64,000 bases of DNA, from the NCBI GenBank assembly GCA_016192455.1, contig JACPUC010000007.1, positions 194,720-258,719 of the forward strand. The letters are read 5' to 3'. The notes beneath the pieces were generated by a model. That model saw only the letters and a list, made by a program, of their open reading frames with translations, had not been told where the DNA came from and made no database searches. How positions within the stretch are numbered: the first letter of the stretch is position 1; every line of letters begins with the position of its first letter. This stretch comes from Candidatus Tectimicrobiota bacterium (GTDB taxonomy: Bacteria > JACPUC01). Positions 5,253 to 39,128 of the stretch are shown here, piece by piece. The position numbers and the translations under genes were made by a program.

Positions 5253-5402
5253 ATCGTTCTTCCCTCGCAACACGGAGAGTCGTAGGCCAGGGTGATGGAC
5301 TGTTCCGTGATGGCCTCGACTTTGAGGTGAGGTGATCATGGCCTCAAACCCAGCGGCTTCACCGGCGGCGCCAGGCCGCCGCGGGCCGCAGCCTGTGGCC
5401 CT

Positions 5403-20387: not shown

Positions 20388-21533
20388 CTACCGCAGCAGC
20401 GGCAGCACCGACTGCGCCGACAGGTTGGCTTGAGACAAGATCGACACACCCGCCTGCACGAGGATTTGCGCCCGGGTGAAGTTGGTCGTCTCCTCCGCGA
20501 TGTCCGCATCTCGAATGACGGACTCGGCGGCCGCCGTGTTCTCGATTGCCGAGGCCACGTTGCCGGATGCGAACCCGACGCGGTTCTGGAAGGACCCGAG
20601 GTCTCCCAGGGCCGTGTTCAGGTCGCTGATCGCGGTGTCGATGGTGTCGATGTACGTGTTGGCGTTGCTCTGGGAGGTGACATTGCCGGTGATGCCCAGA
20701 CCGCTGACGCGCAGATCCAGATTCGTGCCCGAGAGCGTGATGCGGTTGTTGGCGCCGCTGTTCGCACCCACCTGGAAGAGGGAGCTGCCGGTCGCCGTCA
20801 TGCCGAAGTCCTTGTTCGCGGCGGTGGCCGCGGCAACCGCGTCGCCGTTCGTGTACGCCGCACTCAGTTTGACCTTGATGCCAAGGTCGGAGAAGTTCAG
20901 GGTCCGGAACTCGCCGATGCCCAGACCGCTGACGGCCGAGAAGGTGACCACCTGGGTGGAGCTCGCGCCTTGCAGACTCAAGCTGGTGGTGGTGGCGCCG
21001 GTCACCGTGAAGATCGCCGCAGCGCTCGCGCCACTGGCCTGGATATCAGCGACACCGTTCGTGGCGCTCAGCGCCGAGCCGAGGGTGGTCGCGTTGACGC
21101 TGATGCCAAGGCTGCCGTTCACCAGCACGGTGCCGTTAAACTCCGTGCTGTTCGCAATACGGTCGACTTCGCTCTCCAGGGCGCTGCGCTCATTGTCGAG
21201 TGCGGTGCGCGCCGCGGCGTCGTTCTGGTCCGAGGCCGACTGCACGGCGAGCTCGCGGAGTCGATTCAGGATGTTGCCGATCTCGGTGGCGGCCCCTTCC
21301 GCCGTCTGGCCAAGGGCGGAAGCCTGTGAAGCGTTCCGGGAGGCGACCCGCAAGCCTGAGACCTGGGCGCGCAGGTTGTTGGCGATGGACAGGCCCGCGG
21401 TGTCGTCACTCGCCTGGTTGATGCGGAACCCTGACGACAGCCGGCTGAGGGAGCGACCGAAAGCGCCTTGCGATTTCGCAAGGTTCCGCGCCGCGTTCAT
21501 GGCTCCAACGTTGGTGTTAATTCTCAAGCCCAT
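20388..21533 (-). CDS. fliC: Flagellin
   Basis: 381 residues from the ATG at 21533, with AAGGAGG eight bases before it. The N-terminal D0/D1 region starts MGLRINTNVGAMNAARNL and contains LSSGFRINQASDDTAGLSIA. The C-terminal D1/D0 region has TNFTRAQILVQAGVSILSQA and ends VLPLLR. A serine/threonine/alanine-rich variable domain (about 140-290) lies between, a likely surface for O-glycans. Flagellin is exported by the type III gate and polymerises into the filament. The gene is led by a sigma-28 promoter (21796-21822) and a leader of about 256 bases whose end can fold into a CsrA-type hairpin. This is the only flagellin in the window. Confidence 0.97.
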   Translation of the reverse strand: MGLRINTNVGAMNAARNLAKSQGAFGRSLSRLSSGFRINQASDDTAGLSIANNLRAQVSGLRVASRNASQASALGQTAEGAATEIGNILNRLRELAVQSASDQNDAAARTALDNERSALESEVDRIANSTEFNGTVLVNGSLGISVNATTLGSALSATNGVADIQASGASAAAIFTVTGATTTSLSLQGASSTQVVTFSAVSGLGIGEFRTLNFSDLGIKVKLSAAYTNGDAVAAATAANKDFGMTATGSSLFQVGANSGANNRITLSGTNLDLRVSGLGITGNVTSQSNANTYIDTIDTAISDLNTALGDLGSFQNRVGFASGNVASAIENTAAAESVIRDADIAEETTNFTRAQILVQAGVSILSQANLSAQSVLPLLR

Positions 21534-21795: not shown

Positions 21796-21822
21796 CTATC
21801 GGCTTGCAAGAGGAGAACTTAA
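21796..21822 (-). promoter_or_regulatory. Sigma-28 (FliA) promoter of fliC
   Basis: Minus-strand TTAAGTTC (21822-21815), an 11-base spacer and GCCGATAG (21803-21796) match the sigma-28 consensus TAAAGTTT-N11-GCCGATAA at 6 and 7 of 8 positions. An A/T-rich stretch (about 21823-21845) lies directly upstream like an UP element. Start of transcription would be near 21789. Confidence 0.85.
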
Positions 21823-22195: not shown

Positions 22196-25183
22196 TCACG
22201 GGTGGCTGGCGCGACGGGTGCCGGCCTCCTCCATTTCGTAGCAGAGGGCGGCGGCATCCGGCACGCCGAGCGCGGCATAGGTCTTGCCGAGAAGTTCGAA
22301 GGAGCCCATATCGCCGCCGCACCCCTGCCGCAGCGCTGCTTCCAGGTGCTGTCGGGCGGCGTGGTACTCGCGGCGAAGAAAACAGAGGCGCCCCAGCTCG
22401 CGATGCGCCCCCGCATGCGCCGGGGCGATGAGCAGGGCGGTCTCCGAGGCGGCCTTCGCGGCGGCGAGGTCGTGGCGCGCGCCAAGCCGCCGCGCCAGCG
22501 TGAGGTAGAGCTCGGCAAGCTCCTCCAGGGTGGTGAGGGGCGCGCGCGTTCCCACTTCGAGCCGCGCGCAAAGCTGCTCAAGCTGCGTCAAGCAGGCGTC
22601 CAGCTCGCCACCCTGCAGGCAGAGGCCGCTGAGCCGCAGGCGCGCCTCCAGGCACTCCGGGAACAGCGCTACGAGGTGCTCGAAGGCCTGTCGCGCCGCC
22701 TCGGGCTGTTCCTGCATGAGGTGGAGGTAGGCGAGGTTGAGGTGCGCCTCCATGAAGGTGGGATCGAGCGCCAGCGCCGCCCGGTAGTAACGCTCCGCCT
22801 CCGCCACCTCCCCGTGACGCACCGCCACTAACCCCAAGTTGAAGGAGAGGGGCGCACTTTCGTAGCCGGCGGCTTGCGCCGCGCGCAAGAAGGTGGAAGC
22901 CGCGTCGATCTCATTCGCCCGCATCGCCAGGGTTCCCCGGATGAACGTGGCGAGGCCCGGCGCGCGCGGATCGCGGGCCAGACGCTCCACCAGCTCCTCG
23001 ACCGCAGCTTCCTGTCCCGCCTGCAGGAGGCACTCGACGTACCAGAGGTGGAGCTCGGCATCGCAGGAGTTGAGAGTCGCGGCGGCGGCGTAGTGGCTGA
23101 TCGCTGTCGCATACTCCTGCGCGCGCTGCAGGCAGCGCCCGTACGCCGCATGGTAGCGGAAGCTCACCTCGGCGACATCGACGGGGATGAGCGAGACGCT
23201 GAAGTCAACCCGCGCCAGGCGCTCCAGGCACTGGCGCGCAGTGGCCAGCTCGCCGCGGCGAAATGCCAGGAGGCCCGCCTGGTACTCCACCAGCCAAAAG
23301 GCCGGGTCGATCCGGCGCACCTGGTCAAATTCACGCCGCGCCTCCTCCATGCGGCCCGCCTGTCCATACGCGGTGCCCAGCCAGACCCGCGCGTGCAGCG
23401 CCCACGCCATCTCCTCCTGCTCCTCCGGCAGCGCCGCCAGGAGGTCCTCGAAGAGCCGCATGCAGGCCTCGCTGCGCCCCCACTTCAGCTCGTTCATCCC
23501 CAGCATGTAGCGCGTGTAGTGGTCGTCGGGCGCCGCCTCGAGCCGCGCCCTGAGGAGCGCCTCGTTACGCGCCAGCTTGCGCTCCCCCGCACCCTTGTCC
23601 GCGTAGCCCAGGTGCTCAATCGTGGCCTCGATCGAGGCGGTGGGGATGCCCAGCCTCTGCAGCGACGGCAGAAGCTGCTCGTGGATGATTCCCGAAAAGG
23701 CGACGCCTGCAACATTCGGTACGATGCGGAGCTGGTAGGAGACGGTGCTGCGGTCATCGGCTTGGCGATTCCGCAGCTTCACGAAATAGGCGACGCGCTC
23801 GCCCGGCACGAGCTCGCGGCGAAGACGCGCCGCATCATCCGGGCTGATGCGATCATCGGCATCCACCCAGATGATGAAGTCCCCGGCTGCATACCGCAGG
23901 GACGCATTCCGCGCCGCCGCGAAATCATCGCACCAGGCGAAGCGCTCGACTCGCGCCCCCTCCCGCGCCGCCAGCTCGGCGGTGTCGTCCCGCGAGCCGG
24001 TATCGACGACGATCATCTCGTCGGCCAAGGCAGCGAACGACCGCAGGCAGGGCACGATATGCCGGGCCTCATCGCGCACGATCATGCAGAGGGAGAGCCG
24101 CGCGGGACGCGCGCGACGCTCCTCCATGCGGCGGAGATTGCGCCGCGCCTGAGCATTCGCCGGATCGAGCTGCAGCGCGCGGCAGGTCATCTCCTTGGCT
24201 TCGGCCACCTGGCCGAGGCGCTCGAGCGCCACGCCCAGGTTCAGGAATGTGTCGCTCTCATCGCCGCGCAGGGCGATGGCACGCCGCAGCAGGGTCGCCG
24301 CGGCCTCGAACTCCCCCGCCCCCATGCGCAGCGCGGCGAGGAGGGTGTGCGCATCGGTGAACGCCGCGCTCGGCGCCCGTCGCCCCGCGGCAAGCTCTTC
24401 GTCCTGGAGGTCGATGGCGCGCTCGCAGGCGGCCGCGGCCGCGGCGAACTCCTGGAGTTCGTAGTGGTGCAGCGCCGCCTCGAGGAAGGCGTGCGGATCA
24501 CGCGGGGCGTTGCGAATCTTCTCCTGGCTCGCCGCCAGGTAGCGCGCCGCCTTGGCGCGCCGGCGCCGCGGGTTGAGCGCTCCTCCGTGGTGCACCGGCA
24601 CGGGCGCCTCGGCCAGGCGCGCCCCCAGGGCCGCGAGGGACACCTCCACCGTTTCGTGCACCTGGCCAGCGAAGCGGACGCGCCGGTCGTTGCGGAACAG
24701 GCGCACCTTGACGCTGGGGAACCACCCCCGGTAGCCCTGCTCGTGCTGCGGGTACTCCCCCACGCAGTCGTGCCACTCCGCCACCTCCGCCGCCCGCGCC
24801 TCGACGCAGTAGTTGCGCGTCACCACCCGGTAGGCGTCAAGTCCGGGCTGCTCGAGGAGCGCTCGCAGCACACCGTGGTCCCGCGGCGCAATTGTTTCAT
24901 CCGCATCGAGGCTGAGGACCCAGTCGCTCGTCATGTGCGCCAGGGCGGCGTTGCGCGCGGCGCTGAAGTCCTCCTCCCAGGCGACCTCGAAGACCTTCGC
25001 GCCGAACTCCCGCGCGATCTCCCGCGTGGCATCGGTGGAGCCGGTATCAACGATGACGAGCTCATCGGCGAGATCGGCAACGCTCTCCAGGCAGCGCCCC
25101 AGGCACTCGGCCTCGTCCCGCACGATCATACTGATGCCGAGCCTCGGATGTCCCGCCCGCCCCTTCGTCGCTCCACCCTCCAT
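22196..25183 (-). CDS. Giant glycosyltransferase: two GT2 domains with TPR arrays
   Basis: 995 residues from the ATG at 25183; GGGAGCAACC precedes it, unlike the GTG at 25207. Residues about 16-230 form a GT2 (GT-A) domain with LGISMIVRDEAECLG, the nucleotide-binding VDTGSTDATRE and the DxD-type LSLDADE. TPRs follow (about 235-370). A second GT2 domain spans about 370-590 (RLSLCMIVRDEARHI, VDTGSRDDT, IWVDADD). Eight or more further TPRs run to the end. Both GT2 domains keep their metal-binding acids, so both could be active. No membrane segment is present. It is the last gene of the sigma-54-led operon and lies directly before fliC, so flagellin or filament glycosylation is the leading guess. 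TPRs would hold the protein substrate, as in O-GlcNAc-type enzymes. Confidence 0.85.
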   Translation of the reverse strand: MEGGATKGRAGHPRLGISMIVRDEAECLGRCLESVADLADELVIVDTGSTDATREIAREFGAKVFEVAWEEDFSAARNAALAHMTSDWVLSLDADETIAPRDHGVLRALLEQPGLDAYRVVTRNYCVEARAAEVAEWHDCVGEYPQHEQGYRGWFPSVKVRLFRNDRRVRFAGQVHETVEVSLAALGARLAEAPVPVHHGGALNPRRRRAKAARYLAASQEKIRNAPRDPHAFLEAALHHYELQEFAAAAAACERAIDLQDEELAAGRRAPSAAFTDAHTLLAALRMGAGEFEAAATLLRRAIALRGDESDTFLNLGVALERLGQVAEAKEMTCRALQLDPANAQARRNLRRMEERRARPARLSLCMIVRDEARHIVPCLRSFAALADEMIVVDTGSRDDTAELAAREGARVERFAWCDDFAAARNASLRYAAGDFIIWVDADDRISPDDAARLRRELVPGERVAYFVKLRNRQADDRSTVSYQLRIVPNVAGVAFSGIIHEQLLPSLQRLGIPTASIEATIEHLGYADKGAGERKLARNEALLRARLEAAPDDHYTRYMLGMNELKWGRSEACMRLFEDLLAALPEEQEEMAWALHARVWLGTAYGQAGRMEEARREFDQVRRIDPAFWLVEYQAGLLAFRRGELATARQCLERLARVDFSVSLIPVDVAEVSFRYHAAYGRCLQRAQEYATAISHYAAAATLNSCDAELHLWYVECLLQAGQEAAVEELVERLARDPRAPGLATFIRGTLAMRANEIDAASTFLRAAQAAGYESAPLSFNLGLVAVRHGEVAEAERYYRAALALDPTFMEAHLNLAYLHLMQEQPEAARQAFEHLVALFPECLEARLRLSGLCLQGGELDACLTQLEQLCARLEVGTRAPLTTLEELAELYLTLARRLGARHDLAAAKAASETALLIAPAHAGAHRELGRLCFLRREYHAARQHLEAALRQGCGGDMGSFELLGKTYAALGVPDAAALCYEMEEAGTRRASHP

Positions 25184-25327
25184 GGTTGCTCCCTTCCCCG
25201 GGTTCACTTGCGCACCCCTGCACCTGCTGGGGCAACGCCAGCGCCTGCGTTCGCTTTCGTGGATGGACTACTCCGACCCGCCGCCGGCGGGAATGATGTC
25301 CGACGCGCTCCCAGGCGGCCTCTCCGT

Positions 25328-28300
25328 TCACGGCTTCCCCGTCCCGGCGGCGCACCCCGCCGTGGGAGGGGCCTTGCTTTGTTCGAGGCTGCGCAGGCCG
25401 GCGAGGGCATCGCGATGCAGCGGATTGCTCATGAGGACCTCCTCCCAGTGCTGGCGGGCTTCCTCTCTCGAGCCGCGCGCCAGACAAAGCTGCGCTAACG
25501 CGGCATGGTGCGTCTCCTCGCCCTTCCCGGCGGCAAACACCTCACGCAGCTTCACCGTGAGATCCTTGCGCCGCGCCGCCGTGCCGGCCGAACGAAGGAG
25601 CATGGCAACCACCTCGGCATCCTGGGGATTAATGGACCAGGCGCAGCACAGGGCCTCCCAGGCTTCTTCGCCGTGCCCCAGCCGGTGCAGGGCAAGGGCA
25701 AGATCACGCCAGGCGTCGCTGCACCCCCGCTGACGCGCCAGGGCCTGGCGAAACAGACGCGCCGCCGCCGGCATGTCACCGCGCGCGTGCAGCACCTTCC
25801 CGAAGAGGTGCCACGCCTGCCAGGCGGACGCATCGGCGCGCACGGCTTGCTCGCAGAGTTCCTGCGCCGCCTCGACGTCCCCTCCTTCCAGGAGGAGCGA
25901 GGCGAGTTCCCGACAGGCGGCGCTGCGCTGGGCGGGCTGCACTCCTTCCGACACCTGTGGGAGCTTCACCGCCGACGCGATCATGGACGCCCCGTACGCA
26001 GCGCCCTCCGGGGCGCGGAGGTGCCAATGCTCAGCCAGCCCCGGAGGGAGAGCCGCAACCAGCGCGGTGGCAAGCTCGCGGTCGCTGCCTGCCACCGCCG
26101 CCTTGATATTGCGCGCCACGGCAGCCGCGCAGCGATCCCTGACCACCTGGCGATCCAGCACCGCAAGCTTGCGTTCCCATGCCGCGGCGATGTCGCGCCA
26201 CTGATACCGGCAGCGGCTCCGCTGCCAGCCGCACTCGCTGAGACGCGCCCAGGCGGCGTCATCCTCGATGAGCTCGAGCGTGGCGGCGAGGAAGGCGTCG
26301 CGGAAGGCATCACTCGCCGGCTCGCCGGGAATGAGGCGGCCGGCCTCCCCCACGGTCTCCGGCAGGGCCCCGCGGGTCGAGGTGACGACCGGCGTACCCG
26401 CGGCCTGCGCCTCCAAGACGGCGTTGCAGAAGGTCTCGGGCCACGTGCAGGGGTAAACGAGGAGACGTGCCGAGGCGAGTTCGCGGTAGAGCTCGACCTT
26501 GCGCACCGTGCCCTGCACGATGATGCCAGGCTGCGCCAAGCCGGCAGCCAGCGCCTGCACTTCGGCATCCTCGGCAAGCGAGGCCGCCGTGGTGTAGGTA
26601 AAGACGTGCAGCTCCAGCTTCGGACAAGCCTTCCGCAGCAGCGGCCACCAGGCCAGCAGCAGCGCCAGGCCGCGCGAGGGGCGACTGGTGTAGAGGAGCT
26701 TATAGCGTTGACGCGGCGGGCGCTCCTCGAACTCCTGCGGCCGGATACCATTCTTCGTCACCCAAATCTGCTCCGGCGGGATGCTGAAGTGTTCCGCCCA
26801 GCTCGCCGCGTGGTCGGCGCTCTTGGTGACGAAGTAGTCGATGCCGAGATCATGCAAATCCTCGTTGCAGAGGAACTCCGACCGCACGTCATCGCAGTTG
26901 AAGAGGAGCGCGAGCCGCGCCCGCACTCCCCACTTGAAGGGTTCGAGCCGGCGCACCGCGATGAGGCTGGGCCATTCGGCGAAGTAGCTCGTGAGGTAGA
27001 AATCGGTCACGTTGCGATAGGTCACGCCGTCAATGGTGCGACCGCCGGCGGCGTGCGTGTACACCGCGACGCGCCGCCCGCGTGCCGCAAGCTCCCGCGC
27101 CAGGTGGATGAGCGAGCTCTCGGCGCCGCCGAGGCCGCGCTGCTCCAACGAGGCGCCGTCGAAAACACCGTGCGTGTAGAACACGATCTCCTCGTCGACA
27201 CGTCCCGGGTCGCGGCCGAGCTGACGCATGAGGCGGCCATAGTCCTCGTAGGCGGTCCAGTAGATGAGGTCAAGGCCGACGGCGGCGCGGTACGCCGTTA
27301 GCGCCTCTTCCCAGCGGCCGGCGGCTTCGAGCGCGTGGCCGAGCTGACGGCGCAGCGGGGCGGAGGCCGGCTCTTCCTCGATGGCGCGCACCGCCGCCTC
27401 GACGTCGCGCTGCCGGCGGAGGAGCGTCCCTTCCCCGCCGGCATCGCCGCCGCGCAGGCGCAGTCGCGCCACAAGCTCGGCCGCCTCGCCATGCCGCTCA
27501 TCCCAGCGCAGCGCCAGCTCGCACGCCTGCAACGCCGCTTCCTCGTCGCCAAGCCGCTGCAGGCAGAGCGCCCGGAGATAGGCAAGCTCCGCATTCCCCT
27601 CGTGGTGGCGCAGCGCCTGCCGCAGGAGGAGCGCCACCGCCTGGTAGGCTTCCAGGGTAATGCCGAGCTCGACGAGCATCTGCAGAATATCAAGCCGCTC
27701 AGGATGCGCCGCGGCCGTCGCCATGAGCTTGCGCCAGGCGCTCAGCCAGTCGCCTTGACGCTGGGCGCAAACGGCCAGGTTGAGCGACGCTTCCACGAGG
27801 TCCGGCTGTTGCGCCAGCGCCTTGCGGAAACAATGCTCGGCATCGCCCGTCCTCCCCTCCTCCAGGAGGAGCCGCCCCAGCAGGGTGTGCGCGGGCGCGT
27901 GCGTCGTCGCCAAGCGCAGCGCTTCGTGAAGGCGCACCAGCGCGGCGTCACGCTCACCGTGCTCGACGTGCTGGAGCGCCTGCTCGTAGGCGCGCTGCGC
28001 GGCGTTCTCGGGAGGAGCCGAGCTGGCCGGCTGGTGGGGCGCCGCCGCTGTTTCCCCCCGCCCCGAAGCCCGCGGCCGGGCGTTGCTCAGGAGCTGCTGG
28101 AGGGTGGCATCCCACTCCGTGGCGATGCGGCGCCAGTCGTGCCAGGTGAGCACTTTGCGTCGGCCCGCGGAGCCGAAGCGCTGCCGCCGCGACGGCTGCC
28201 TAAGGAGGGAGACGGCGTGCTCCACGAAGGCATCCTGGTAGGCGGCGCTGCGCGCATCCCCGTGGATGAAGATGCCCCCCTCTCCCACAGTCTCGGGCAG

Positions 28301-30364
28301 GGCCCCGAGGGCGCTCGTCAGCACGGGAAGCCCCGCGGCCATTGCTTCCAGCGCCGCGATGCAGGAGGTCTCCTCGAAATGGTTCGGGTAGGCGAAGAGG
28401 CTCGCCTGCTGCAGCGCCTGACTAAGCGTCTCCTGGTCGACGCTGCCGAAGAGCGTCACCCCCGGCTGCTGCGCCTGGGCATAGAGCGGGCCGAACTGCT
28501 CCTGCTCCAGCCGCGGATCGAGCTGGTAGACCGCCATGCTGCTGTACACGTGCAGCGTCGCCTCGGGCGCCGCCGCTCTGATGCGGGGAAAGCAGGTAAG
28601 CAAGACATCGAGGCCCCGAAAGGGGGTGCTCGTGTAGATGAGGCGGGCCTCGTGGCGCTGCGCCGGGTTGTGCGTGAAGCGCTCCGTATTGATGCCGTTG
28701 CGGCTGACGCAGAGCTTCTTGCGGGGGAAGGCGAAGCGCTCCATGAAGGTCTCGGCCTGCCAGTAGCTGACCGTCCAGAGGCCGTCGATGCGCTCTTGCA
28801 CTTGCGGGTCCCGCAGCGCCTGCACGTGCGGCTGGTCGCAGGCGTCACCGGTCCAGAAGCAGCGCACCCGGGCGGGCACATCCGCGGCAAAGGGCTCGAG
28901 GGTGCGCACCGCAATGAAGATGTCGAGACCGCCGCGCTTGAAGTGCTCGAAGATCTCCTCGCGTCGCTGGTAGGTGACGCCATCGTAGACGCCCGGCCGA
29001 TCACAGTTGTTGAAGACGAAGACCTCATAGCCGCGCTGCGCCAGCTCGCACGCCAGGGAGATGAGCGCCGTCTCCATGCCCCCCAGGGGCTGGTTGCGCA
29101 GGGTATCGCCGTTGAACGTCAGGCCGTTGTTAAAGAAGGTGATCGTAGGCCGCGCCGCGAGGGCGCCGACGGGGCTGGGACTCCTGGGTCCTTCGTCCGC
29201 CGCCGGTCCCAGCGCCGCGAGGAGCTCCTGGGCCGGGGTGAAGCTCGGATCGAGGCGCAGGGCGCACCGCGCGGCGGCGCGGGCGGCCTCGACCTCTCCC
29301 ATGCGGCGCAGGATGGCGGCGACGTTGTAGTGGCCGAGGGGACGCTGCGGGTGCGCCGTGGTCGCCCGCGTGTAGGTCTGGATCGCCGCCCCATACTCCT
29401 GCGCGGCGGCGAGATTCGCCCCGAGGTTGCAGAGGGCGCCGAAGTGCTCCGGCACCAGCTCGAGGGCGCGCTGGTAGGCGCTGTTCGCCGCCTCGCGCTC
29501 GCCCAGGGCGCCCAGCGCCACGCCGAGGTTGAAATGCCCCTCGGGGTCAGCGGGAGCCAGTGCCGCGGCCCGCCGGAGCGCCGCCGCCGCGCCCTGGGCA
29601 TCCCGCAGCTCGAGGAGCTGCTTGCCGAGGTCGAGGTGGGCCCGCGGGTCGTTCGCCTCCTCCTCCTGCTTCTTCGTTCCCAGGCGGCGGTAGAGCTCCG
29701 CCTTGCGTCGCAGGTAGCGCGGGGCGCGCACCTTGCCGTAATGGTGCAGGGGGAGGTCGGTGATCCCGATCGTCCAGCCCAGCGCCAGGATGGACGGCTC
29801 GACGACTTCGTGGACGCGGCCCGTGAAGCGCACCTCCGGGGCGCGCCGGAAGAGGCGCACAAGCGGGTTCTCGAGGTAGCCGGGGTACCCACGACCCTCC
29901 GCGTAGTCGCTCGAGTTCGGCAGCCAGTGCTCGCTGGTGCGCTCCAGGGAGTAGGTGCGCTGGACGAGGCGGTAGGCCTCGATGACGGGATGCGCGAGGA
30001 GGCCGCGGAGGCGCGCGAGGTCCCGTCCGGCGATCACTTCATCGGCATCGAGGACGAGAATCCAGTCGCCCCGCGCCTGCTCGAGGGAGACGTTGCGGGC
30101 GGCGGCGAAGTCGTCCTGCCAGGGCAGCTCGAGGAGCACGCCTCCCAGGCGCTGGGTGAAGGCCCGGGCGATGTCGCGCGTGCCGTCGCGGGAGCCGGTA
30201 TCGACGACAATCAGCTCATCCACGATCGCCGCCACGCTCTCCAGGCAGACCGGCAGGTAGGCCTCCTCATCGCGCACGATCATGCACAGGGAGAGCCGCG
30301 GCGCCCCCGATGCCGAGCCGAGCGCACCGCGGCCTTCCTCGTCGGGGCGGTTCTCCTTGCTCAT
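25328..30364 (-). CDS. Giant tri-catalytic glycosyltransferase: GT2-TPR-GT4-TPR-GT4-TPR
   Basis: 1678 residues. The ATG at 30364 overlaps the stop of the preceding gene (ATGA). Residues about 22-235 are a GT2 domain (LSLCMIVRDEEAYL, VDTGSRDGT, LVLDADE). TPRs span about 240-385. A GT-B/GT4 domain spans about 405-790, with PLGGMETALISLACELAQRG, SRNGINTERF and FEETSCIAALEAMAAGLPVL. TPRs follow (about 800-1010). A second GT4 domain (about 1070-1425) has GLGGAESSLIHLARELAARG, TKNGIRPQEF and ETFCNAVLEAQAAGTPVV. A last TPR array runs to about 1660. The Glu of the EX7E donor-site motif is kept in both GT4 domains. Three active sites on one soluble chain suggest stepwise assembly of a short glycan on one bound target. 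Donor and acceptor are unknown. Confidence 0.85.
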   Translation of the reverse strand: MSKENRPDEEGRGALGSASGAPRLSLCMIVRDEEAYLPVCLESVAAIVDELIVVDTGSRDGTRDIARAFTQRLGGVLLELPWQDDFAAARNVSLEQARGDWILVLDADEVIAGRDLARLRGLLAHPVIEAYRLVQRTYSLERTSEHWLPNSSDYAEGRGYPGYLENPLVRLFRRAPEVRFTGRVHEVVEPSILALGWTIGITDLPLHHYGKVRAPRYLRRKAELYRRLGTKKQEEEANDPRAHLDLGKQLLELRDAQGAAAALRRAAALAPADPEGHFNLGVALGALGEREAANSAYQRALELVPEHFGALCNLGANLAAAQEYGAAIQTYTRATTAHPQRPLGHYNVAAILRRMGEVEAARAAARCALRLDPSFTPAQELLAALGPAADEGPRSPSPVGALAARPTITFFNNGLTFNGDTLRNQPLGGMETALISLACELAQRGYEVFVFNNCDRPGVYDGVTYQRREEIFEHFKRGGLDIFIAVRTLEPFAADVPARVRCFWTGDACDQPHVQALRDPQVQERIDGLWTVSYWQAETFMERFAFPRKKLCVSRNGINTERFTHNPAQRHEARLIYTSTPFRGLDVLLTCFPRIRAAAPEATLHVYSSMAVYQLDPRLEQEQFGPLYAQAQQPGVTLFGSVDQETLSQALQQASLFAYPNHFEETSCIAALEAMAAGLPVLTSALGALPETVGEGGIFIHGDARSAAYQDAFVEHAVSLLRQPSRRQRFGSAGRRKVLTWHDWRRIATEWDATLQQLLSNARPRASGRGETAAAPHQPASSAPPENAAQRAYEQALQHVEHGERDAALVRLHEALRLATTHAPAHTLLGRLLLEEGRTGDAEHCFRKALAQQPDLVEASLNLAVCAQRQGDWLSAWRKLMATAAAHPERLDILQMLVELGITLEAYQAVALLLRQALRHHEGNAELAYLRALCLQRLGDEEAALQACELALRWDERHGEAAELVARLRLRGGDAGGEGTLLRRQRDVEAAVRAIEEEPASAPLRRQLGHALEAAGRWEEALTAYRAAVGLDLIYWTAYEDYGRLMRQLGRDPGRVDEEIVFYTHGVFDGASLEQRGLGGAESSLIHLARELAARGRRVAVYTHAAGGRTIDGVTYRNVTDFYLTSYFAEWPSLIAVRRLEPFKWGVRARLALLFNCDDVRSEFLCNEDLHDLGIDYFVTKSADHAASWAEHFSIPPEQIWVTKNGIRPQEFEERPPRQRYKLLYTSRPSRGLALLLAWWPLLRKACPKLELHVFTYTTAASLAEDAEVQALAAGLAQPGIIVQGTVRKVELYRELASARLLVYPCTWPETFCNAVLEAQAAGTPVVTSTRGALPETVGEAGRLIPGEPASDAFRDAFLAATLELIEDDAAWARLSECGWQRSRCRYQWRDIAAAWERKLAVLDRQVVRDRCAAAVARNIKAAVAGSDRELATALVAALPPGLAEHWHLRAPEGAAYGASMIASAVKLPQVSEGVQPAQRSAACRELASLLLEGGDVEAAQELCEQAVRADASAWQAWHLFGKVLHARGDMPAAARLFRQALARQRGCSDAWRDLALALHRLGHGEEAWEALCCAWSINPQDAEVVAMLLRSAGTAARRKDLTVKLREVFAAGKGEETHHAALAQLCLARGSREEARQHWEEVLMSNPLHRDALAGLRSLEQSKAPPTAGCAAGTGKP

Positions 30365-33297
30365 CGGATCACCTTTTCCCGCACTCCGCTGGCGACCGTC
30401 GTGGGCGCTCCTTCCCCGGCTCGTCGGGAGGCGGGGGTGTCGGGTGCGCCCGCGGCGAGGGCCGCGGCCTCCGCGGAAGGTGGATCGGTCGCCGGCGATC
30501 GCCCGGCGCGCACCCTGCTCAGCCGCCGGCGGACGTCCTGATCATGGGGAGCGAGCGCCAGCAGACGCTCGTAGCAGGTGGCAGCGGTGCGCAGGTCACC
30601 GCTTTGTTCGGCGAGGATGCCGAGGTTCGCCAGGGCGTCCCCATGCGCCGGTTCGAGGCGCAACACCTGGGCGAAGATCTCGCCGGCCGCTCCGAGGTTG
30701 CCCTCCTGCCAGCGGACCATGCCGAGGTTGTTCATGGCGGTGGGATGGCGCGGATTGATGGCGAGGGCCTGTTCGAAGTGGTGCGCCGCCCGCCCTACGT
30801 CGCCGTCGAGGAAGAGGGACTGCCCGTACTGCGTTTGCAGGTCGGCGTCGCGCGGCGCCGCGGCGAGGGCGCGCTCGAGGTAGAGACGGGCGCGACGCGG
30901 CTCCTGCTGCTTCAGGAAGAGCTGGCCGAGCGCGGCGAGCGCCCAGGCATCCTGGGGCTGCTGCGCCAAGATCGCCTCTAGGGTGCCCTGGAGTGCCGTG
31001 AGGTCACCTGCCTCTGCCTGCCGCTGCGCCTGCAGCCGCAGCTCCTCGAGGGTCGATGGAGAGGGACGACGCGCCCGCCGGTGGCCGTTCGCTGCCTCCG
31101 CGGTCCGCCGCCGCGCTGCTCGGCCTGGCGCCGCCCGCAGCGACCGGAGACGTTCGAGGACGAAGCGGGCCGAGCGCTCCCAACTGAGCTGGGAGAGAAC
31201 GTGGGCGCGCGCCGCGGCTCCCTTCCGCCGGCGCTCCTCGTCGTTTCGGTACACCCGACGCAGGATCTCGGTGAGCGCCTCGACATCCGGCTCGAGCAGC
31301 CACGCGGGGCGCACCGTCGGCTCGCGGAGGTCGAGCGTGCGCCGGCTCGTTGGGATGAAGTAGGACCCGGCGTCGGTGCAGAAATCATCGCAGGCCCCGC
31401 CGCGGCTCACGAGGACAGGGAGGCCGCTGGCCATCGCCTCCGCCACGGGCAGACCGAACCCCTCGCCGCGGTAAGGGTGCACGAGACAGTCGCAGGAGGC
31501 GTAGAGTCGCGCCACCTCCGCCTCGCTGAGGGTGCTCCCCAGGTACAGGATTTCCGGCGCGCCCGCATCGGCTTGCAGCGCCTCGATGCTCGGCCCGGCC
31601 CCCTGGCCGCGGTAGAAGCTCTCCTGCCCGAAGTCCTTGATGACGAGGCAGACGTCATCCTGGCGGCTGAAGGCCGCGGCATACGCCTCGAGGAGGAGAT
31701 CGATCCCCTTGCGGTGGATGGCCCCGCCGACGAAGAGGAACTTCACCCGTTTGCGCGTCGCCTGAGCGACGGCGGGGAGCGGCTCCTGGTTGGGGTGGAA
31801 CCGGCTATGATCCACGCCGAGCGGAATGACATGCACGCGGGACGGTTCGAGGCCGTCTTCAAGGTAGCAGGCGCGGTTATGCCTCGAATAGACCCACACC
31901 TCGTCCACCCTTGCAAGGGGCTCCTGCCAGCTTCGTAGCATGCTGCCGAACTCCCAGGGCTGCATGAGCACCCAGGCGCCGCGGGCGGGGCGCTCGAAGC
32001 TCGGCGGCCACTGGTGGCGCACATGGAGGTGGGCGGGGCCGCTGAGCCCGCGGCGCATGGCCTCGGCGAGGAGACCTTCGCGCTCGGGATCGCGGCGCGC
32101 ATCGAACTCGTGCGGCTCGTAGGGAAGAATCTGCAGCTCGCACTCGCCGGTGCGCTGGAGCGCCGCGCAGAGACGCCGGTTCACGAGGGCCAGGCTGTGG
32201 TCGACGAACTGCGTCCCTTCCCAGATGAGGCGCAGCGGTTCGCCCCGCCGGTCTCCGGCGGGAGCGCCGCCACGCCGAGCGGGTGCGGAAGCTGGCCGTT
32301 CCTCAGGCCGCAGCAGGCCACGGAGATCCTGCCGCGCGGCCTCGAGGTCAAGCCGGCGGAGGAGCGAGGCGCGCCCGGCCTGACCGATGGCCCGCGCCTG
32401 CTCGGCGGCCGCGAGGATGTCGCCGGCCCGCGCCCGCAGCATGCCCACATCGTTGCTCGCGAAGCAGTTCACCCCGTCTTTGAGGCCGGCCCCGGCGAAC
32501 GTCAGGCAGAGGGTCGGCGTTCCCGTCAGGCGCGCTTCCCACCACTGGTAGGTCGGCGCGCTGTTCATGCCGCGAGCCGGCAGATGGAGGAGCGCGGCGT
32601 ACGCCTGAAGGGCCGCAGTCCAATCTTTCCAGGAGCGCGGCCGGCGCGCGTTTGGGACATCGGGGAAGTCTCCGAGCAAGAAGTGCGGCGTCGGCCCAAG
32701 GGCGTGCCGGCGCACGGCGTCGCGCTGCTCAATGCCGTCATGCCTTGCATCGCCCGCGTAGAGGATCGCCGCCACGCCGCCGCGATGCGGCGTGTAGCGC
32801 TCCGGCAGGAGCGGCGGCATGGTGAGGAAGACGTGCCGCGCCTCGGGGAACCGCTGGTAGCCGTAGGCCGTCCCCTGCTCCCGCAGGTGCACGAAAGTGG
32901 CGCCCCGCAGCCGCGGGCGGAGACTGGCAAGGGCGGCGGCTTGCTGCGCGTCCTCCAGGAGCTCGTCAAACCCCGACCACGGCAGGATGAAGGCGCCCCG
33001 CTGCGGCATGGGCAGGGTGCGCAGCGCCGTCGGGGTGCCGAAGAGCACGACTTCATAGGAACCGGCCTTGATCGCCTCGGCGGCCGTCTTCGGCTCGATG
33101 CCGGCAAGGCGCCCCGCAGCTCCGTTGAGGCTCTCTCCACGCGCCGCTGTCACCTCTTGGGCGGAGGGCTCTCCGACAGTGGGGACAAAGAGCGGATCGC
33201 CCGAGCAGTTCACCGCCTCGACGCAGTCCCACAACGGAGCCAGAATCTCGCCGAGGGGGAAGTAGAGGTCGCAGAAGAGAGCGCGGCGTTCACGCAC
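30361..33297 (-). CDS. GT4 glycosyltransferase with TPR array and a second, degenerate GT-like N-terminal region
   Basis: 978 residues if it starts at the GTG at 33297, which has AAGGGGG nine bases upstream and clears the previous gene by 67 bases. The open frame continues further into that gene without a good start. The N-terminal part (about 1-340) holds alternating alpha/beta sequence (YEVVLFGTPTAL, AAILYAGDARHDG, WWEARLTGTPTLCLTF). It resembles a GT-B or CgeB-like fold without clear catalytic motifs. Residues about 375-770 are a full GT4 domain (FLFVGGAIHRKGIDLLLEAY, HPYRGEGFGLPVAEAMASGL with the EX7E motif). About four TPRs follow (790-930). It overlaps the start of the next glycosyltransferase by four bases, so the two are translationally coupled. 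Confidence 0.82.
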   Translation of the reverse strand: MRERRALFCDLYFPLGEILAPLWDCVEAVNCSGDPLFVPTVGEPSAQEVTAARGESLNGAAGRLAGIEPKTAAEAIKAGSYEVVLFGTPTALRTLPMPQRGAFILPWSGFDELLEDAQQAAALASLRPRLRGATFVHLREQGTAYGYQRFPEARHVFLTMPPLLPERYTPHRGGVAAILYAGDARHDGIEQRDAVRRHALGPTPHFLLGDFPDVPNARRPRSWKDWTAALQAYAALLHLPARGMNSAPTYQWWEARLTGTPTLCLTFAGAGLKDGVNCFASNDVGMLRARAGDILAAAEQARAIGQAGRASLLRRLDLEAARQDLRGLLRPEERPASAPARRGGAPAGDRRGEPLRLIWEGTQFVDHSLALVNRRLCAALQRTGECELQILPYEPHEFDARRDPEREGLLAEAMRRGLSGPAHLHVRHQWPPSFERPARGAWVLMQPWEFGSMLRSWQEPLARVDEVWVYSRHNRACYLEDGLEPSRVHVIPLGVDHSRFHPNQEPLPAVAQATRKRVKFLFVGGAIHRKGIDLLLEAYAAAFSRQDDVCLVIKDFGQESFYRGQGAGPSIEALQADAGAPEILYLGSTLSEAEVARLYASCDCLVHPYRGEGFGLPVAEAMASGLPVLVSRGGACDDFCTDAGSYFIPTSRRTLDLREPTVRPAWLLEPDVEALTEILRRVYRNDEERRRKGAAARAHVLSQLSWERSARFVLERLRSLRAAPGRAARRRTAEAANGHRRARRPSPSTLEELRLQAQRQAEAGDLTALQGTLEAILAQQPQDAWALAALGQLFLKQQEPRRARLYLERALAAAPRDADLQTQYGQSLFLDGDVGRAAHHFEQALAINPRHPTAMNNLGMVRWQEGNLGAAGEIFAQVLRLEPAHGDALANLGILAEQSGDLRTAATCYERLLALAPHDQDVRRRLSRVRAGRSPATDPPSAEAAALAAGAPDTPASRRAGEGAPTTVASGVREKVIR

Positions 33298-33364
33298 GAA
33301 GGAGGTCCCCCTTGCAGCCCTGAGGTCCAGCGCGGCTTGGGCTGCGTACTTATGAGACTCACGG

Positions 33365-34831
33365 CTAGGCCGCGGCGCGCGCCCGCAGCCCCTTGAAATC
33401 GAGCAGGTGGCCGACGACCGGCCTGACGCCGCGCAGGAGGTAGCGCACGTCATCGACGGTGCGCACCTTGCTGAGCTTGCGCGCCAGGAAGCGGACATCG
33501 AGGAAGCCGCGGTAGAGCCCGCGGCACATCGCCATCACCTCATCGGGCGTCATATCGGGGGTAACGAAGACCGGCTCCCGCATGTCGAGGCGCTCGTACT
33601 CGGTCGGCCCGATCCGCAGCCAGCCGTTCGCCACGGCGTCGCGAAAGAGCGGCGTCCCCGGGTAGGGCATCACCACGGTGGCCTGGAGCATCTCCGCGTA
33701 GCCTTCCGCCATGAGCTGCCGGGCCAGGGCCAGGGTGCGCTTGGCATCCTGGCGCGTCTCCCACGGGTAGCCCACCATGGTGGTGAGGTGGAGATCGAGG
33801 CCGGCCGCCTTGGCGATGCGGCAGCCCTCCCAAATCTGCTCCACGGTGATCCCCTTCTTCAGACGGTCGAGGGTTGCCTGGTTGGCCGATTCCAGGCCGA
33901 TCTTCATGAGCCGGAATCCAGCCCGCTTCATAAGCTCCGCGTTTCGTTCCGTCAGCAGGTCGAAGCGGAAGTTGAGGTCGAAGAGAATCTGCCGGTGCAG
34001 CCCTCTCTCGATGAGCCCCTCGCAGAAGGTGCGCAGCCAGCCGCCGGCGGGGAAGGTGCCGGTGTCATCGAAGACCTCGCGCACCCCGTAGCGGCTCACC
34101 AGCATCTCGATCTCATCAAGGAGGCTCTTGGGCGAGCGGCTGCGGAACTTCGGGAAGAGCGTGGTCCAGGAGCAGAAGGTGCAGGCGTTCTTGGCGCAGT
34201 CGCGGCCGACCATGGTGCGGATGAAGGGGGCGCGCTTGTAGAACTTCTCGCCATAGTTGAACCACTTCGTGAGGTCCCGGTCGATGAGGGGCAGGCTATC
34301 GAGGTCGTAGTCCTGCTCGAATCCGCCGCTGCTCTCGATCTCCCCCTGCCTGCGATGCCAGACGCCGGACGGCAGGGCGGCACGCCCTTGCAGGGCCTCG
34401 ACCAGCCCTTTCAGTTGGAAGTCGAAGTAGCCGCCGGTGATGACGAAGTCCACGGGCGAGGCCCGCAGCGATTCTTCCGGGAACGCCGTGACGTGGTCGC
34501 CCATGAGTACGAGGCGCGTCTCGGGGAGCTCCGCCTTCAGCCTGGCGATGATCCCCCAGTGCTGCTTCACCACCGGGGATTTCGTCTCCATGGCGACAAG
34601 CTGGGGGCGCACCTCGAGAACGTGGGCCATGAACTGGTCAAAGGACCAGCGCTCGGCCAGGCCGTCACTCCAGAGCACCTCATGGCCGGCATGCTTGAGG
34701 AGCGTCGCCGCGCTCGCGGGCACGACGGGGTAGAGGAAGGTGGGATTGTGGAACCACTGGAACTGGCGGTTCTGTCCCAAAAGCGGTGTCCCCTCCCCCT
34801 GCAGCGGGGGATAGGCGATCATGATCTTCAT
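33365..34831 (-). CDS. B12-binding-domain radical SAM protein with unusual CX4CX2C cluster motif
   Basis: 488 residues from the ATG at 34831, with AAGGTG upstream. An N-terminal cobalamin-binding-like Rossmann region (MKIMIAYPPLQGEG, ASAATLLKHAGHEV, RLVLMGDHVTAFPEE; about 1-150) is followed by a radical SAM barrel (about 195-420). The iron-sulfur motif reads GRDCAKNACTFCSW, that is CX4CX2C and not the usual CX3CX2C. GLESANQATL and TTMVGYPWET are typical later strands. Such enzymes often methylate unactivated carbons or phosphinates. The position inside a glycosyltransferase operon suggests modification of a sugar or of the glycosylated product. No B12-binding DxHxxG is seen, so the N-terminal domain may not bind cobalamin by the canonical histidine. 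Confidence 0.82.
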   Translation of the reverse strand: MKIMIAYPPLQGEGTPLLGQNRQFQWFHNPTFLYPVVPASAATLLKHAGHEVLWSDGLAERWSFDQFMAHVLEVRPQLVAMETKSPVVKQHWGIIARLKAELPETRLVLMGDHVTAFPEESLRASPVDFVITGGYFDFQLKGLVEALQGRAALPSGVWHRRQGEIESSGGFEQDYDLDSLPLIDRDLTKWFNYGEKFYKRAPFIRTMVGRDCAKNACTFCSWTTLFPKFRSRSPKSLLDEIEMLVSRYGVREVFDDTGTFPAGGWLRTFCEGLIERGLHRQILFDLNFRFDLLTERNAELMKRAGFRLMKIGLESANQATLDRLKKGITVEQIWEGCRIAKAAGLDLHLTTMVGYPWETRQDAKRTLALARQLMAEGYAEMLQATVVMPYPGTPLFRDAVANGWLRIGPTEYERLDMREPVFVTPDMTPDEVMAMCRGLYRGFLDVRFLARKLSKVRTVDDVRYLLRGVRPVVGHLLDFKGLRARAAA

Positions 34832-34962
34832 CGCGCACCTTTACCTTGTGATCCCGCGAACCTCCGCGTCCGGCGCGGGGAACGCCGCCGCGGCATCGCC
34901 GGGGGTTGCCTCGTGGTGGACGCACCCATTCAGGGTGACCCCGCGCACGCAGCCTGCCAGGG

Positions 34963-37755
34963 TTAAGCAAGGTCCTCGATTTCCGGCCGGGCCGGCGCCG
35001 GCGGGCTGGTCTCCCTTGCCGGCCGCGACTGCGCCGCCGCGCGACGTGGGCCGTCGAGGTGCTTCCGCCGGCGCTGGCGGGCGTCATCGAGGTCGCGCGC
35101 CAGCAAACCGCGCAGGAAGTAGAGGCCGTAGGTCCAATGCGTCGCCAGGCTGCCGGCCATCACCAACAGGGAGGACGAGAGGCTGAGGGTGCTCAGTCCC
35201 GTCAGCGCGGCGGCCGCGGCGTAGGCGGCGAGCATGCCGGCGTAGCCCCACCAGCCAACGGGGTGGACGAGCCCGGCGAGCCAGCCAAAGGCGCACGCCG
35301 CCGTGAACGCCGAGGGAAGGAAGTAGCCGGCGCGCCGGGAGGTTGCCGGGAAGCGCTTCACGAAGAAGCCCCGGTGCAGGGCATAGCGCCGCACCTGCCG
35401 AAGGTGCGCCCGGAAGAGCGCCCGGCGGTGATGGAAGACGACCGCATCGGGATCGTAGATGATGCGCTGCCCCAGCTCGTGGACGATGCGGCTGCAGAGG
35501 ACGGTATCCTCGCCGGGCCAGTAGTCGCACTGGCAGCCGCCGAGGGCCGCCAGGACGCCGGCGCGCACCAGGAGGTTGCAGGTAGGGAAGTCATCCACCT
35601 CTTGGTAGGTGCCAGGCAGGTAGCGGTAGCGGTAGGGCCCGCTCACCAGGCGCGAGGCGAAGAGGACGCCGCTGAGCCGCTGCCGGCGCGAGTCGCTGCT
35701 GGGGGTCACCCCCGGCCCGCCGACCGCCGCCACGTCGGCAAGCTGGAAGTTGCGCACCGCCATCCGCAACCAGTCGCGACGCGGGTAGGCATCGTCATCG
35801 AGGAAGGCGATGATCTCGCCGCGGGCGCTGCGCCACCCCTGGTCACGCTTGGCCGCCGGCGAGAGCGGCCCGGTGGGGATGATGCGCACGTTCGCCTGCG
35901 CCGTCGTTATCGGCTCATCCGGCAGGACGATGATCTCCACGTCCGGATAGTCAAGCTGGGCGCAGTGCCGCAGGCACTCCTCGAGGTACGGCGAGGCGCC
36001 CCCCGCGGCAATCACCACGGAGACCGACGGAGACGCCAGGAGGGGCAGACGCGGGCGCTCGTAGTAGCGCAGGTAGCGCAACCGATAGTAGATGCCAAGG
36101 GTGTCGAGGGCGGTGCGCAGCACATCCTGCATGCCGATGCGGCTGCGAGCCCGGGAGAAGTTCAGCTCGATGGGCGCCTCGGCGATGCGGTAGCCGAGCT
36201 GCCGGGCCACGACGAGCAGCTCGACGTCGAAGGCGTACTGCTTCTCGATCAGGCGCGGCAGCACGTCCTGGAGCACCTGCCGCTTGAAGAGCTTCAGCCC
36301 CGTCTGGGTATCGCGCACCGGCAGCCCGAAAAGCAGCTTCAGCACCGCCGCGTAGAGCGTGCTGAGGAGGCGGCGGCGCAGCGGGTAGTGGAGGCGTGAT
36401 TGCGGATGCCGCTTCGAGCCCACGACGATGTCGGCCCCCTCGCGCTCCATGGTGTCGAGAAGCCCGGCAATAAGCCGGGGGTGGAGCTCGAGATCGGCGT
36501 CGAGGAAGACGACGAGGTCGCCGCTCGCTGCCTGGCTCGCCCGCCGCAGGGCCATCCCCTTCCCCTGGTTCTCGCCGTTGCCCCAGACGTGGACGTTGTC
36601 CAGGTTGTGCGCCAAGAGCTCGGCCACCGCCTTGGTGTCGTCCTTGCTCCCGTCATCGGCCACGATGATCTCGAAGTCGCAGCCGAGGTCCCGCAGGACG
36701 CGCTCCGTCTCGCGGATATTGCTGAGGAGGTGGGCGCACTCGTTGTACGCCGGCATGAGGACGGAAATCTTGCGCCCAGGCCTGCCGGCGCGCGGGGGCG
36801 TCAGAGGCGACGGCCGGCCGGGAAGGCCGGTCCACCTCTCCTGGCCAGCCGCCACGGGCTGAGGCTGGAGAGACGCGCCCTCCTCGTGCCAGAGCTGACG
36901 GGCCCGCTCCACCATGCCGCGGCGAGCGTAACAGGCGGTGAGGCCATGCTTGGCGGCGGCATGGGCGGGCTCGATGTCGAGACAGGCGGTGAACGCTTCG
37001 CTGGCGGCCTCCAGGTTTCCAAGGCTGAAGAGCGCGGCGGCAAGGCTGTAACGGTACGCCGCGTTGCGGGGTTCGAGGGCCACCGCTTCCCGATATGCAG
37101 CCGCCGCTGCCTCCGCCGCGCCGTGCTCCGCTTCCAGGGCGCCGCGCAGGTGGTGCGCCAAAGCGTTGCGCGGCTCGAGCTCCGTGACCCGCCGCAGGTG
37201 CTCGAGCGCCGCCGCCGGCCGCCTCGTCTCCATGGAGAGGACGCCGAGGTTGAAGTGCGCATCAGCGGAGTTCGGCTGGAGCTGCAGCGCGCGGGCAAAA
37301 TGGTCCTCGGCTTTCCGCAGCTCCCCGACGAGTTGGCAGAGGACGCCGAGATCATTGGCGAGGGAGCAGTCATCAGGGTTGCGACGGCTGGCGCGCTCGA
37401 GATAGGCCCGGGCGCGTTCGAGGTCATGTTGGTGGTAGGCGATCTGCCCCAGGGCGCAGAGGAGCTCGGCATCCTCAGCTGCATCCTGGAGCAGCCCCTC
37501 ATAGAGCCGCGCCGCGGCCTTGAACTGAGCACGGTGCAGGTAGAGCTTCGCCAACACGCGCCGCACCTCGCGATCCGCGGGCTGCGTCGCAAGCGCCGCC
37601 TCGAGGTGCTCGCAGGCGTCGTGCACATCACCGCGCGCCATGGCATGCCACCCCAGGGCGAGGTGCGCCTCGCGGTGCTGCGGCTGGCGCTTCAAGATAC
37701 GTTTGGCGCGCTTCAGCTTGGCGTGGGAGAGAGCTTGACCCATTGCTTGCCCCAT
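34963..37755 (-). CDS. TPR protein with two GT2 domains and C-terminal membrane segments
   Basis: 930 residues if it starts at the ATG at 37755. The frame is open to 38145, but the added residues are low-complexity, and a sigma-54 promoter (37904-37919) lies inside that extension. This argues for the shorter form. Residues about 20-290 hold eight or so TPRs. A dolichol-phosphate-mannose-synthase-like GT2 domain spans about 329-565 (KISVLMPAYNE, IIVADDGSKDDT, VFLDADLELH, SRIGMQD). A second GT2 domain spans about 577-825 (VSVVIAAGG, AFLDDDAYPRRDW, EDTVLCSRI). Two or three membrane helices follow (about 825-890). The first domain could charge a lipid carrier, and the helices tie the protein to the inner membrane. 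It is the first gene of the five-gene operon. Confidence 0.82.
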   Translation of the reverse strand: MGQAMGQALSHAKLKRAKRILKRQPQHREAHLALGWHAMARGDVHDACEHLEAALATQPADREVRRVLAKLYLHRAQFKAAARLYEGLLQDAAEDAELLCALGQIAYHQHDLERARAYLERASRRNPDDCSLANDLGVLCQLVGELRKAEDHFARALQLQPNSADAHFNLGVLSMETRRPAAALEHLRRVTELEPRNALAHHLRGALEAEHGAAEAAAAAYREAVALEPRNAAYRYSLAAALFSLGNLEAASEAFTACLDIEPAHAAAKHGLTACYARRGMVERARQLWHEEGASLQPQPVAAGQERWTGLPGRPSPLTPPRAGRPGRKISVLMPAYNECAHLLSNIRETERVLRDLGCDFEIIVADDGSKDDTKAVAELLAHNLDNVHVWGNGENQGKGMALRRASQAASGDLVVFLDADLELHPRLIAGLLDTMEREGADIVVGSKRHPQSRLHYPLRRRLLSTLYAAVLKLLFGLPVRDTQTGLKLFKRQVLQDVLPRLIEKQYAFDVELLVVARQLGYRIAEAPIELNFSRARSRIGMQDVLRTALDTLGIYYRLRYLRYYERPRLPLLASPSVSVVIAAGGASPYLEECLRHCAQLDYPDVEIIVLPDEPITTAQANVRIIPTGPLSPAAKRDQGWRSARGEIIAFLDDDAYPRRDWLRMAVRNFQLADVAAVGGPGVTPSSDSRRQRLSGVLFASRLVSGPYRYRYLPGTYQEVDDFPTCNLLVRAGVLAALGGCQCDYWPGEDTVLCSRIVHELGQRIIYDPDAVVFHHRRALFRAHLRQVRRYALHRGFFVKRFPATSRRAGYFLPSAFTAACAFGWLAGLVHPVGWWGYAGMLAAYAAAAALTGLSTLSLSSSLLVMAGSLATHWTYGLYFLRGLLARDLDDARQRRRKHLDGPRRAAAQSRPARETSPPAPARPEIEDLA

Positions 37756-38681: not shown

Positions 38682-39128
38682 TCAGACATTCACGAGCTCG
38701 CGCATCTCCCGCAGGATGTAGTGCCGCGTGGTGTACTGGCTGTCGCTGAGGACGATCTGCTTGCCAAGCAGGGTGCGGTGGTTGAACAGGAGCGGTCCCT
38801 GGAGGTTCGCGCTGATGTCCTCCGGAGCCTCCCGAACCGTCACGATGACCGCCAGCACGAGGTCGCTCGACTCCGTCACACCCAGCTCCCGCCGCAGCGC
38901 CTCGGTCAGCGCCACGTGGTAATCGGGTCTGAACAGGAGGGGATCGATGATGATGAACGCCAGGTGCGGGTCATCGACCGACTGCAGCCACTTGAAGGGA
39001 GAGTCGTCGGCGTAGTTCAGGACGACAAAGCGGTGGACCTGGGGGAACCCCAGCAAGCCCTCCGGGAAGGAAAAAAGCTTCTGCTCTCGCAGGTCAATCT
39101 CACCAAGTCGTTTCGTGGACAGCTTCAT
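38682..39128 (-). CDS. fliW: Flagellar assembly factor FliW
   Basis: 148 residues from the ATG at 39128 (AAGGAGATGCGGAC upstream). It shows the FliW signatures [39 protein letters not shown], and the late [20 protein letters not shown]. FliW binds CsrA allosterically and is itself displaced by flagellin, so flagellin translation is tied to secretion. It overlaps the csrA stop (ATGA) and is co-translated with it. The glycosyltransferase operon follows after about 920 bases. Confidence 0.96.

Follow-up and report, generated by a model that had tools for sequence, protein, structure and literature searches.

Flagellin receives its glycans in the cytoplasm, before it is exported, and the way in which ordered multi-sugar glycans are assembled there is poorly understood. 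In Listeria the bifunctional protein GmaR moves N-acetylglucosamine (GlcNAc) onto flagellin, and its tetratricopeptide repeat (TPR) domain was proposed to recognise flagellin (PMC9638930). For the type B flagellin of Clostridioides difficile, the glycosyltransferases (GTs) named GT1 and GT2 add GlcNAc and two rhamnoses, respectively, with GT3 being linked to the terminal group (PMC5207246). Binding of flagellin by FlmG of Caulobacter, a TPR and GT-B protein, depends on the TPR part (PMC7591256), and flagellin glycosylation islands of Geobacillus lie within flagellar loci (PMC5109656). Here we describe five genes located between fliW and fliC in a stretch of 64 000 nt from Candidatus Tectimicrobiota bacterium (contig JACPUC010000007.1 of assembly GCA_016192455.1; G000:C3:194720-258719 in our numbering, hereafter the window; genome of 4.46 Mb in 31 contigs, 88% complete). 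Four of them, A to D, encode large proteins that combine GT domains with TPRs, and one encodes a radical SAM protein. We consider it probable that this is a GmaR-type flagellin O-glycosylation locus expanded into TPR-tethered multi-GT proteins.

The five genes fill positions 22196-37755 on the minus strand. An earlier note on this DNA had placed five same-strand genes here, between csrA-fliW and fliC, and had counted at least seven GT domains on four TPR-bearing chains; coordinates and content, including the four-base overlap of B and C, were confirmed, and the count became about nine, with eight domains supported by Pfam and one divergent. Gene A (22196-25207; 1003 aa), adjoining fliC, has the architecture GT2-TPR-GT2-TPR, with two GmaR-like GT2 domains (PF00535) at residues ~20-235 and ~370-590 and TPRs after each. 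Gene B (25328-30364; 1678 aa) is read from Pfam matches as GmaR-like GT2-TPR-GT4-TPR-GT4-TPR. Gene C (30361 to ~33297; ~978 aa) starts with GTG, while a longer open reading frame (ORF) of 1045 aa would overlap the radical SAM gene; Pfam finds its GT4 domain and TPRs, which follow a divergent GT-B-like N-terminal region. The radical SAM gene (33365-34831; 488 aa) is followed upstream by gene D (34963 to ~37755; ~930 aa, ATG start), where according to Pfam a TPR array precedes a GT2 domain resembling polyprenyl-phosphate GTs and a second GT2 domain with a hydrophobic C-terminus. Apart from the B/C overlap the genes are separated by ~67 to 131 bp, and the codon-position GC pattern of all five is that of real genes. 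The catalytic D-A-D motifs of the GT2 domains are intact in A and B; together with the presence of multiple GT domains per protein they point to catalysis.

Two domain assignments deserve comment. The GT-B-like call for the N-terminal region of C comes solely from a 29%-identical homologue that matches Glyco_trans_1; PDB sequence matches of the region were at chance level, and a single-sequence structure model of it had a predicted local distance difference test (pLDDT) score of 38 and was discarded. As for the radical SAM protein, described in the earlier note as B12-type, its radical SAM domain is clear (PF04055, 63.7 bits) and its best NCBIfam relatives are the B12-type enzymes HpnJ and BchE, while the match to the B12-binding domain fell under the Pfam cut-off (26.3 vs 32.1 bits).

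The solved structures closest to the GT2 domains of A are GmaR (PDB 22ao) and then SunS. The second GT2 domain of A matched the GT domain of GmaR over nearly its whole length (query-domain residues 7-175, E-value 2.7e-22), and the GT2 domain of B is 40-47% identical to those of A. For the second half of A, a structure model with pLDDT 85 predicts a GT-A fold with a helical TPR superhelix behind it, and the best fold matches of this model are SunS and ThuS, enzymes composed of GT-A and TPRs. We assign the GT2 domains of A and B to the GmaR/SunS family of protein glycosyltransferases. Three features of a GmaR-type system, a homologous GT2 (GT-A) domain, TPRs behind the GT and a gene adjoining fliC, were found in A.

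Transfer to cysteine, as by SunS, was considered for the axial proteins and excluded: FliC, FlgE, FliD, FlgL and FlgK contain no cysteine at all. The NCBIfam SunS score is far under its cut-off. Since the axial proteins checked have no cysteine, O-linkage is the natural reading. A Maf-type system, in which flagellin receives nonulosonic acids, was rejected as well, as the best match to PF01973 in this 88% complete genome reached only 24.6 bits against a cut-off of 34.6. Elsewhere in the genome we saw a NeuB (nonulosonic acid synthase) domain at G000:C7:157856-158554, within an open frame of 702 aa whose contig holds many GT genes; the host may thus make nonulosonic acid sugars despite the sub-threshold Maf match.

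We searched a profile of the four GmaR-like domains of this genome against 386 genomes (mostly one to few per family; 154 with flagellin) and compared the surroundings (up to 20 kb) of 80 strong matches with those of 20 weak-match controls. The profile was seeded from a flagellar locus, hence the counts describe the habit of the subfamily and not of all GT2s. Flagellar genes were present in 34 of the 80 strong loci and in 26 of the best 40, with none in the 20 controls; 25 of the 80 were within 1.5 kb of fliC. In 23 of 28 loci with fliC, representing 23 genomes of 19 families, the nearest upstream ORF with 250 aa or more was GmaR-like, and in seven loci (L114, L117, L123, L135, L146, L151 and L156) csrA and/or fliW preceded and fliD followed, which is the order seen here. 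The idea that nothing comparable exists elsewhere, and with it the hypothesis of a unique system, was overturned by these similar loci in 19 families.

Large fusions recur too. A protein of at least 1000 aa with GT-like domains was present in the fliC locus of 13 of the 23 genomes, and fused multi-GT proteins in this slot span 1000-2466 aa, examples being those of L110 (2466 aa, six GT domains by Pfam), L108 (1915 aa) and L112 (1840 aa). In view of such proteins the idea of fused catalytic steps forming an assembly line, put forward earlier, is a fair reading, in which the order of reactions would be a matter of inference. L121 and L133, which come from a single family, have the two-GT2-domain form of A immediately upstream of fliC. 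In L110 and L108, the giants encoded upstream of fliC contain domains with 42-44% identity to the two GT4 domains of B; the order of GT4 and GT2 there differs from that in B. The fliC slot of L109 encodes a protein with 50% identity to the GT4 domain of C, and a separate 333-aa gene of that locus matches the N-terminal region of C. Tailoring domains may accompany the GTs: a giant TPR-GT protein in the flagellar locus L143 (2801-7771) has a methyltransferase domain, and another, in L119 (4063-9621), has sulfotransferase domains and is preceded by flgK and flgL, with no fliC detected in that locus. These modules point to methylated or sulfated flagellar glycans.

A quick tree of 110 GmaR-like domains separated the first GT2 domain of A and that of B (3 of 46 rows fliC-adjacent) from the second GT2 domain of A and the flgE-linked GT described below (21 of 64). 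Because its side of the tree is more often fliC-adjacent, one could guess that the second GT2 domain of A (residues ~370-590) starts the glycan.

Own-genome controls, i.e. genome searches and the sequence stretches around their matches, gave further evidence. A whole-genome search with A found three true GmaR-like genes: A, B and a GT2-TPR gene of 531 aa at flgE. A fourth, weak match had no TPR and sits among heptosyltransferase-like, lipopolysaccharide (LPS)-type genes. We then scanned for TPRs the other GT2/GT4 ORFs of the genome, taking all PF00535 matches and the 30 best PF13692 matches minus the operon and the flgE-linked gene; none of these 44 distinct ORFs had a TPR array in either of two scans, nor did the five of them also run against Pfam. 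The repeats of the operon itself had served to train the first TPR model, the scan by consensus only was insensitive enough to miss the flgE-linked protein and C too, the 1.5-kb flanks truncated some ORFs, and the 44 ORFs do not include five weak GT4 matches. As far as examined, GT-borne TPR arrays thus appear to be a flagellar trait in this genome.

Family membership, the restriction of TPRs to flagellar GTs and the recurring position upstream of fliC together give strong support to a flagellar acceptor for A, B and the paralogue at flgE. It is very improbable that the operon serves synthesis of capsule, exopolysaccharide or LPS and lies beside fliC by chance. GT2, GT4 and radical SAM families do also serve polysaccharides, and the cassette resembling D and the radical SAM gene usually does; still, the flagellar positional enrichment is strong and falls to zero in the weak-match control, the polysaccharide GTs of this genome are without TPRs, and no polymerase, flippase or export gene is present in the operon. 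For A to C a capsule/LPS operon was rejected because of the positional enrichment and the TPR restriction.

The third GmaR-like gene (L101:814-2409, on G000:C3) lies ~11.7 kb past the end of the window and shares 38 bases with the 3' end of flgE, a placement suggestive of a hook-protein glycosyltransferase; we found no described counterpart in the open-access literature. This overlap, as well as the length and composition of FliD (264 Ser/Thr among ~1000 residues), raises the question whether the main acceptors, besides or instead of FliC, are other axial proteins, i.e. the FlgE hook, the FliD cap or the FlgK/FlgL junction. We regard this as unlikely, given that the position recurring in 19 families is the one directly upstream of fliC, with fliD placed after fliC in those genomes.

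The picture is different for D and the radical SAM protein. The latter has numerous relatives (over 500 candidates in bacteria and archaea, with 50-60% identity in many phyla), and of the 87 members of its cluster that could be read, 71 have the motif seen here, C-x4-C-x2-C (GRDC-x4-C-x2-CSW), in place of the usual C-x3-C-x2-C. A relative of the second GT2 domain of D was present in 36 of 82 loci. It usually adjoins the radical SAM gene, a relative of the first GT2 domain often comes before it, and a Wzx-type flippase is frequently adjacent. No flagellar genes were seen in the 80 best radical SAM loci (six queries). The earlier note had named homologues lying mainly off flagellar loci, beside polysaccharide genes, as a finding that would speak against its proposal; this holds for D and the radical SAM protein (80 of 80 loci), while the GmaR-like genes recur at fliC. 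Fused GT2-GT2 relatives of D, 50-55% identical and with no visible TPR, occur in two genomes, G086 and G355, where the fused gene (cut by the contig end in G355) overlaps the radical SAM gene by four bases and a further GT2 is present; G086 also has a flippase. The TPR array on D was seen in this genome only, the open frames of other matches being no longer than 770 aa (one cut by a contig end). PDB matches of the first GT2 domain of D were dolichol-phosphate-mannose synthase and ArnC. With homologues of both cassette GT2s and of the radical SAM gene in the same order, the pair of D and the radical SAM gene looks recruited from a lipid-linked or surface-polysaccharide pathway; flippase or polysaccharide neighbours are absent from the operon, and its flanks are flagellar.

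Besides, a block of flippase-GT2-GT2-radical SAM-GT2 genes was observed in several phyla (L019-L098, e.g. L024, L035, L047 and L064), preceded in several loci by genes for NHL-repeat-like proteins and for large proteins that are probably membrane-bound. The block looks like a cassette for a surface glycan that has no name yet.

Does the pair still belong to another pathway? It could be that only A, B and C act on flagellin, while D and the radical SAM protein share no more than the operon with them and work in a pathway of their own, lipid-linked or for surface polysaccharide. The relatives in three-gene cassettes far from flagellar genes, the likeness of the first GT2 domain of D to polyprenyl-phosphate sugar transferases and the close relatives in G086 and G355, with no flagellar genes on their (short) contigs, all agree with such a separation. 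Yet D was fused to TPRs only here, in a genome where TPRs mark flagellar GTs only, the operon contains no flippase, and different radical SAM proteins occupy fliC slots elsewhere: a separate one is adjacent in L133, and in L112 (163-5685, genome G086) the 1840-aa protein unites GT2 domains and a radical SAM domain (CPYRCIFC, C-x3-C-x2-C) two genes upstream of a GmaR-like gene and fliC. We take the separate pathway to be a tenable but clearly less probable reading; because TPRs mark flagellar GTs here and other radical SAM proteins are found in other fliC slots, we lean to the view that the pair now serves the flagellin glycan. The assembly line proposed earlier for flagellin or cap therefore keeps its flagellar acceptor for A and B; for D and the radical SAM protein, membership of the same pathway is unsupported.

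The genomic setting is flagellar throughout. On the minus strand the order is flhB, flhA, flhF, flhG, fliA, fliL, flgG, flgA, flgH, flgI, flgJ, flgN, flgK, flgL, csrA, fliW, the five genes, fliC, fliD and fliS, where several names were given from position and translation only. Upstream, csrA (39125-39394, minus strand; recognised from sequence and translation) overlaps fliW (38682-39128, minus strand; PF02623, 135.7 bits) by four bases. Downstream, fliC (20388-21533, minus strand; PF00669, 123 bits) encodes the flagellin, 381 aa long and the presumed acceptor. The gaps between fliW and D (~930 bp) and between A and fliC (~660 bp) hold no evident gene; the latter contains a sigma-28-like promoter of fliC, TAAGTT-N12-GCCGATA (21797-21821, minus strand), the sole exact match in the window to a pattern that was derived from this site itself after the known consensus had been recognised there. 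Generic sigma-70 and terminator scans gave nothing above shuffled sequences. Within the flagellar cluster, adjoining fliL, we saw a gene of the Na+/H+ exchanger family (52355-53710, minus strand; PF00999), whose role in supplying the motor ion would be only a guess. Some 13 kb beyond fliC two neighbouring genes (648-5339 and 5403-7691, minus strand) encode large, probably secreted proteins of 1563 and 762 aa with carboxypeptidase-regulatory-like, cohesin-like and PKD/BiPBP_C-like domains.

Several observations weigh against a flagellin glycosylation locus of the kind proposed. In 46 of the 80 strong GmaR-like loci no flagellar gene was present in the fetched stretch (some contigs were short), and the GmaR-like family is not exclusively flagellar. 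Relatives of D and the radical SAM protein are non-flagellar. The N-terminal GT of C shows no clear E-x7-E motif, the split of the GmaR-like domains into two clades has a support of 71% in a quick tree, and fliC has its own sigma-28-like promoter and may not be co-expressed with the five genes.

With these points taken into account, the expanded GmaR-type locus remains our preferred explanation, and the acceptor, linkage, sugars and step order that we infer would be as follows. Cytoplasmic flagellin would be gripped by the TPR superhelices, and a GmaR-like GT2 domain of A would put the first sugar, from a nucleotide sugar, on Ser/Thr of FliC. The glycan could then be lengthened, still before export, by the other GT2 domain of A, by the GT2 and the two GT4 domains of B, and by the GT4 and divergent GT-B-like domains of C. 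The pair of D and the radical SAM protein, originating from a polysaccharide cassette and with TPRs acquired here, may add or modify a sugar. The GmaR-like GT-TPR protein encoded behind flgE probably glycosylates the hook likewise.

The occurrence of fliC-adjacent proteins of 1000-2500 aa, with up to six GT domains and TPRs, in many unrelated families suggests a modular solution to glycan building, and the glycan product might be readable from the gene, akin to polyketide synthases. One could speculate further that flagellin glycans in many families are built by true assembly lines, in which TPR-tethered GT and tailoring domains (radical SAM, sulfotransferase, methyltransferase) grip flagellin and act in a set order before export and the domain set fixes the glycan, here with a module borrowed from a lipid-linked polysaccharide pathway; we offer this tentatively, as an idea that may well turn out wrong. 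The two GmaR-like clades, often versus rarely fliC-adjacent, provide a testable guess at the starter domain, and the widespread, apparently unnamed GT2-GT2-radical SAM cassette points to an unusual sugar modification.

Compared with known systems, the locus is most like GmaR of Listeria monocytogenes in having a homologous GT2 domain followed by TPRs and, as we read it, flagellin as the target; GmaR has one GT domain and an anti-repressor domain, whereas here two to three GT domains are present per protein on four chains. SunS and ThuS provide the best folds for the second half of A but modify a cysteine of a small peptide. FlmG of Caulobacter crescentus likewise fuses a flagellin-binding TPR module (a role that the TPRs would share here) to the modifying GT, but its single GT-B domain transfers pseudaminic acid and is not GmaR-like. 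In the type B locus of C. difficile the GT genes are also clustered with fliC, and stepwise sugar addition is established there, while here the several GT domains suggest it; its GTs, however, are separate and encoded downstream of fliC, its tailoring genes are different, and no TPR-linked giants have been described. The GT2-GT2-radical SAM polysaccharide cassette agrees with D and the radical SAM gene in its domains and in their order, but it is usually flippase-adjacent, with no TPR and no flagellar genes. We found no description in the open-access literature of this make-up, be it TPR-GT fusions at fliC, hook glycosyltransferases or radical SAM proteins in flagellin modification; what appears to be new is that many GTs are fused with TPRs on giant chains, that such fusions recur widely, that a cassette seems to have been recruited, and that a GmaR-like enzyme is linked to the hook. 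Judged from its sequence, the locus is a little-described but recurrent variant of the flagellin glycosylation island, and not a unique one.

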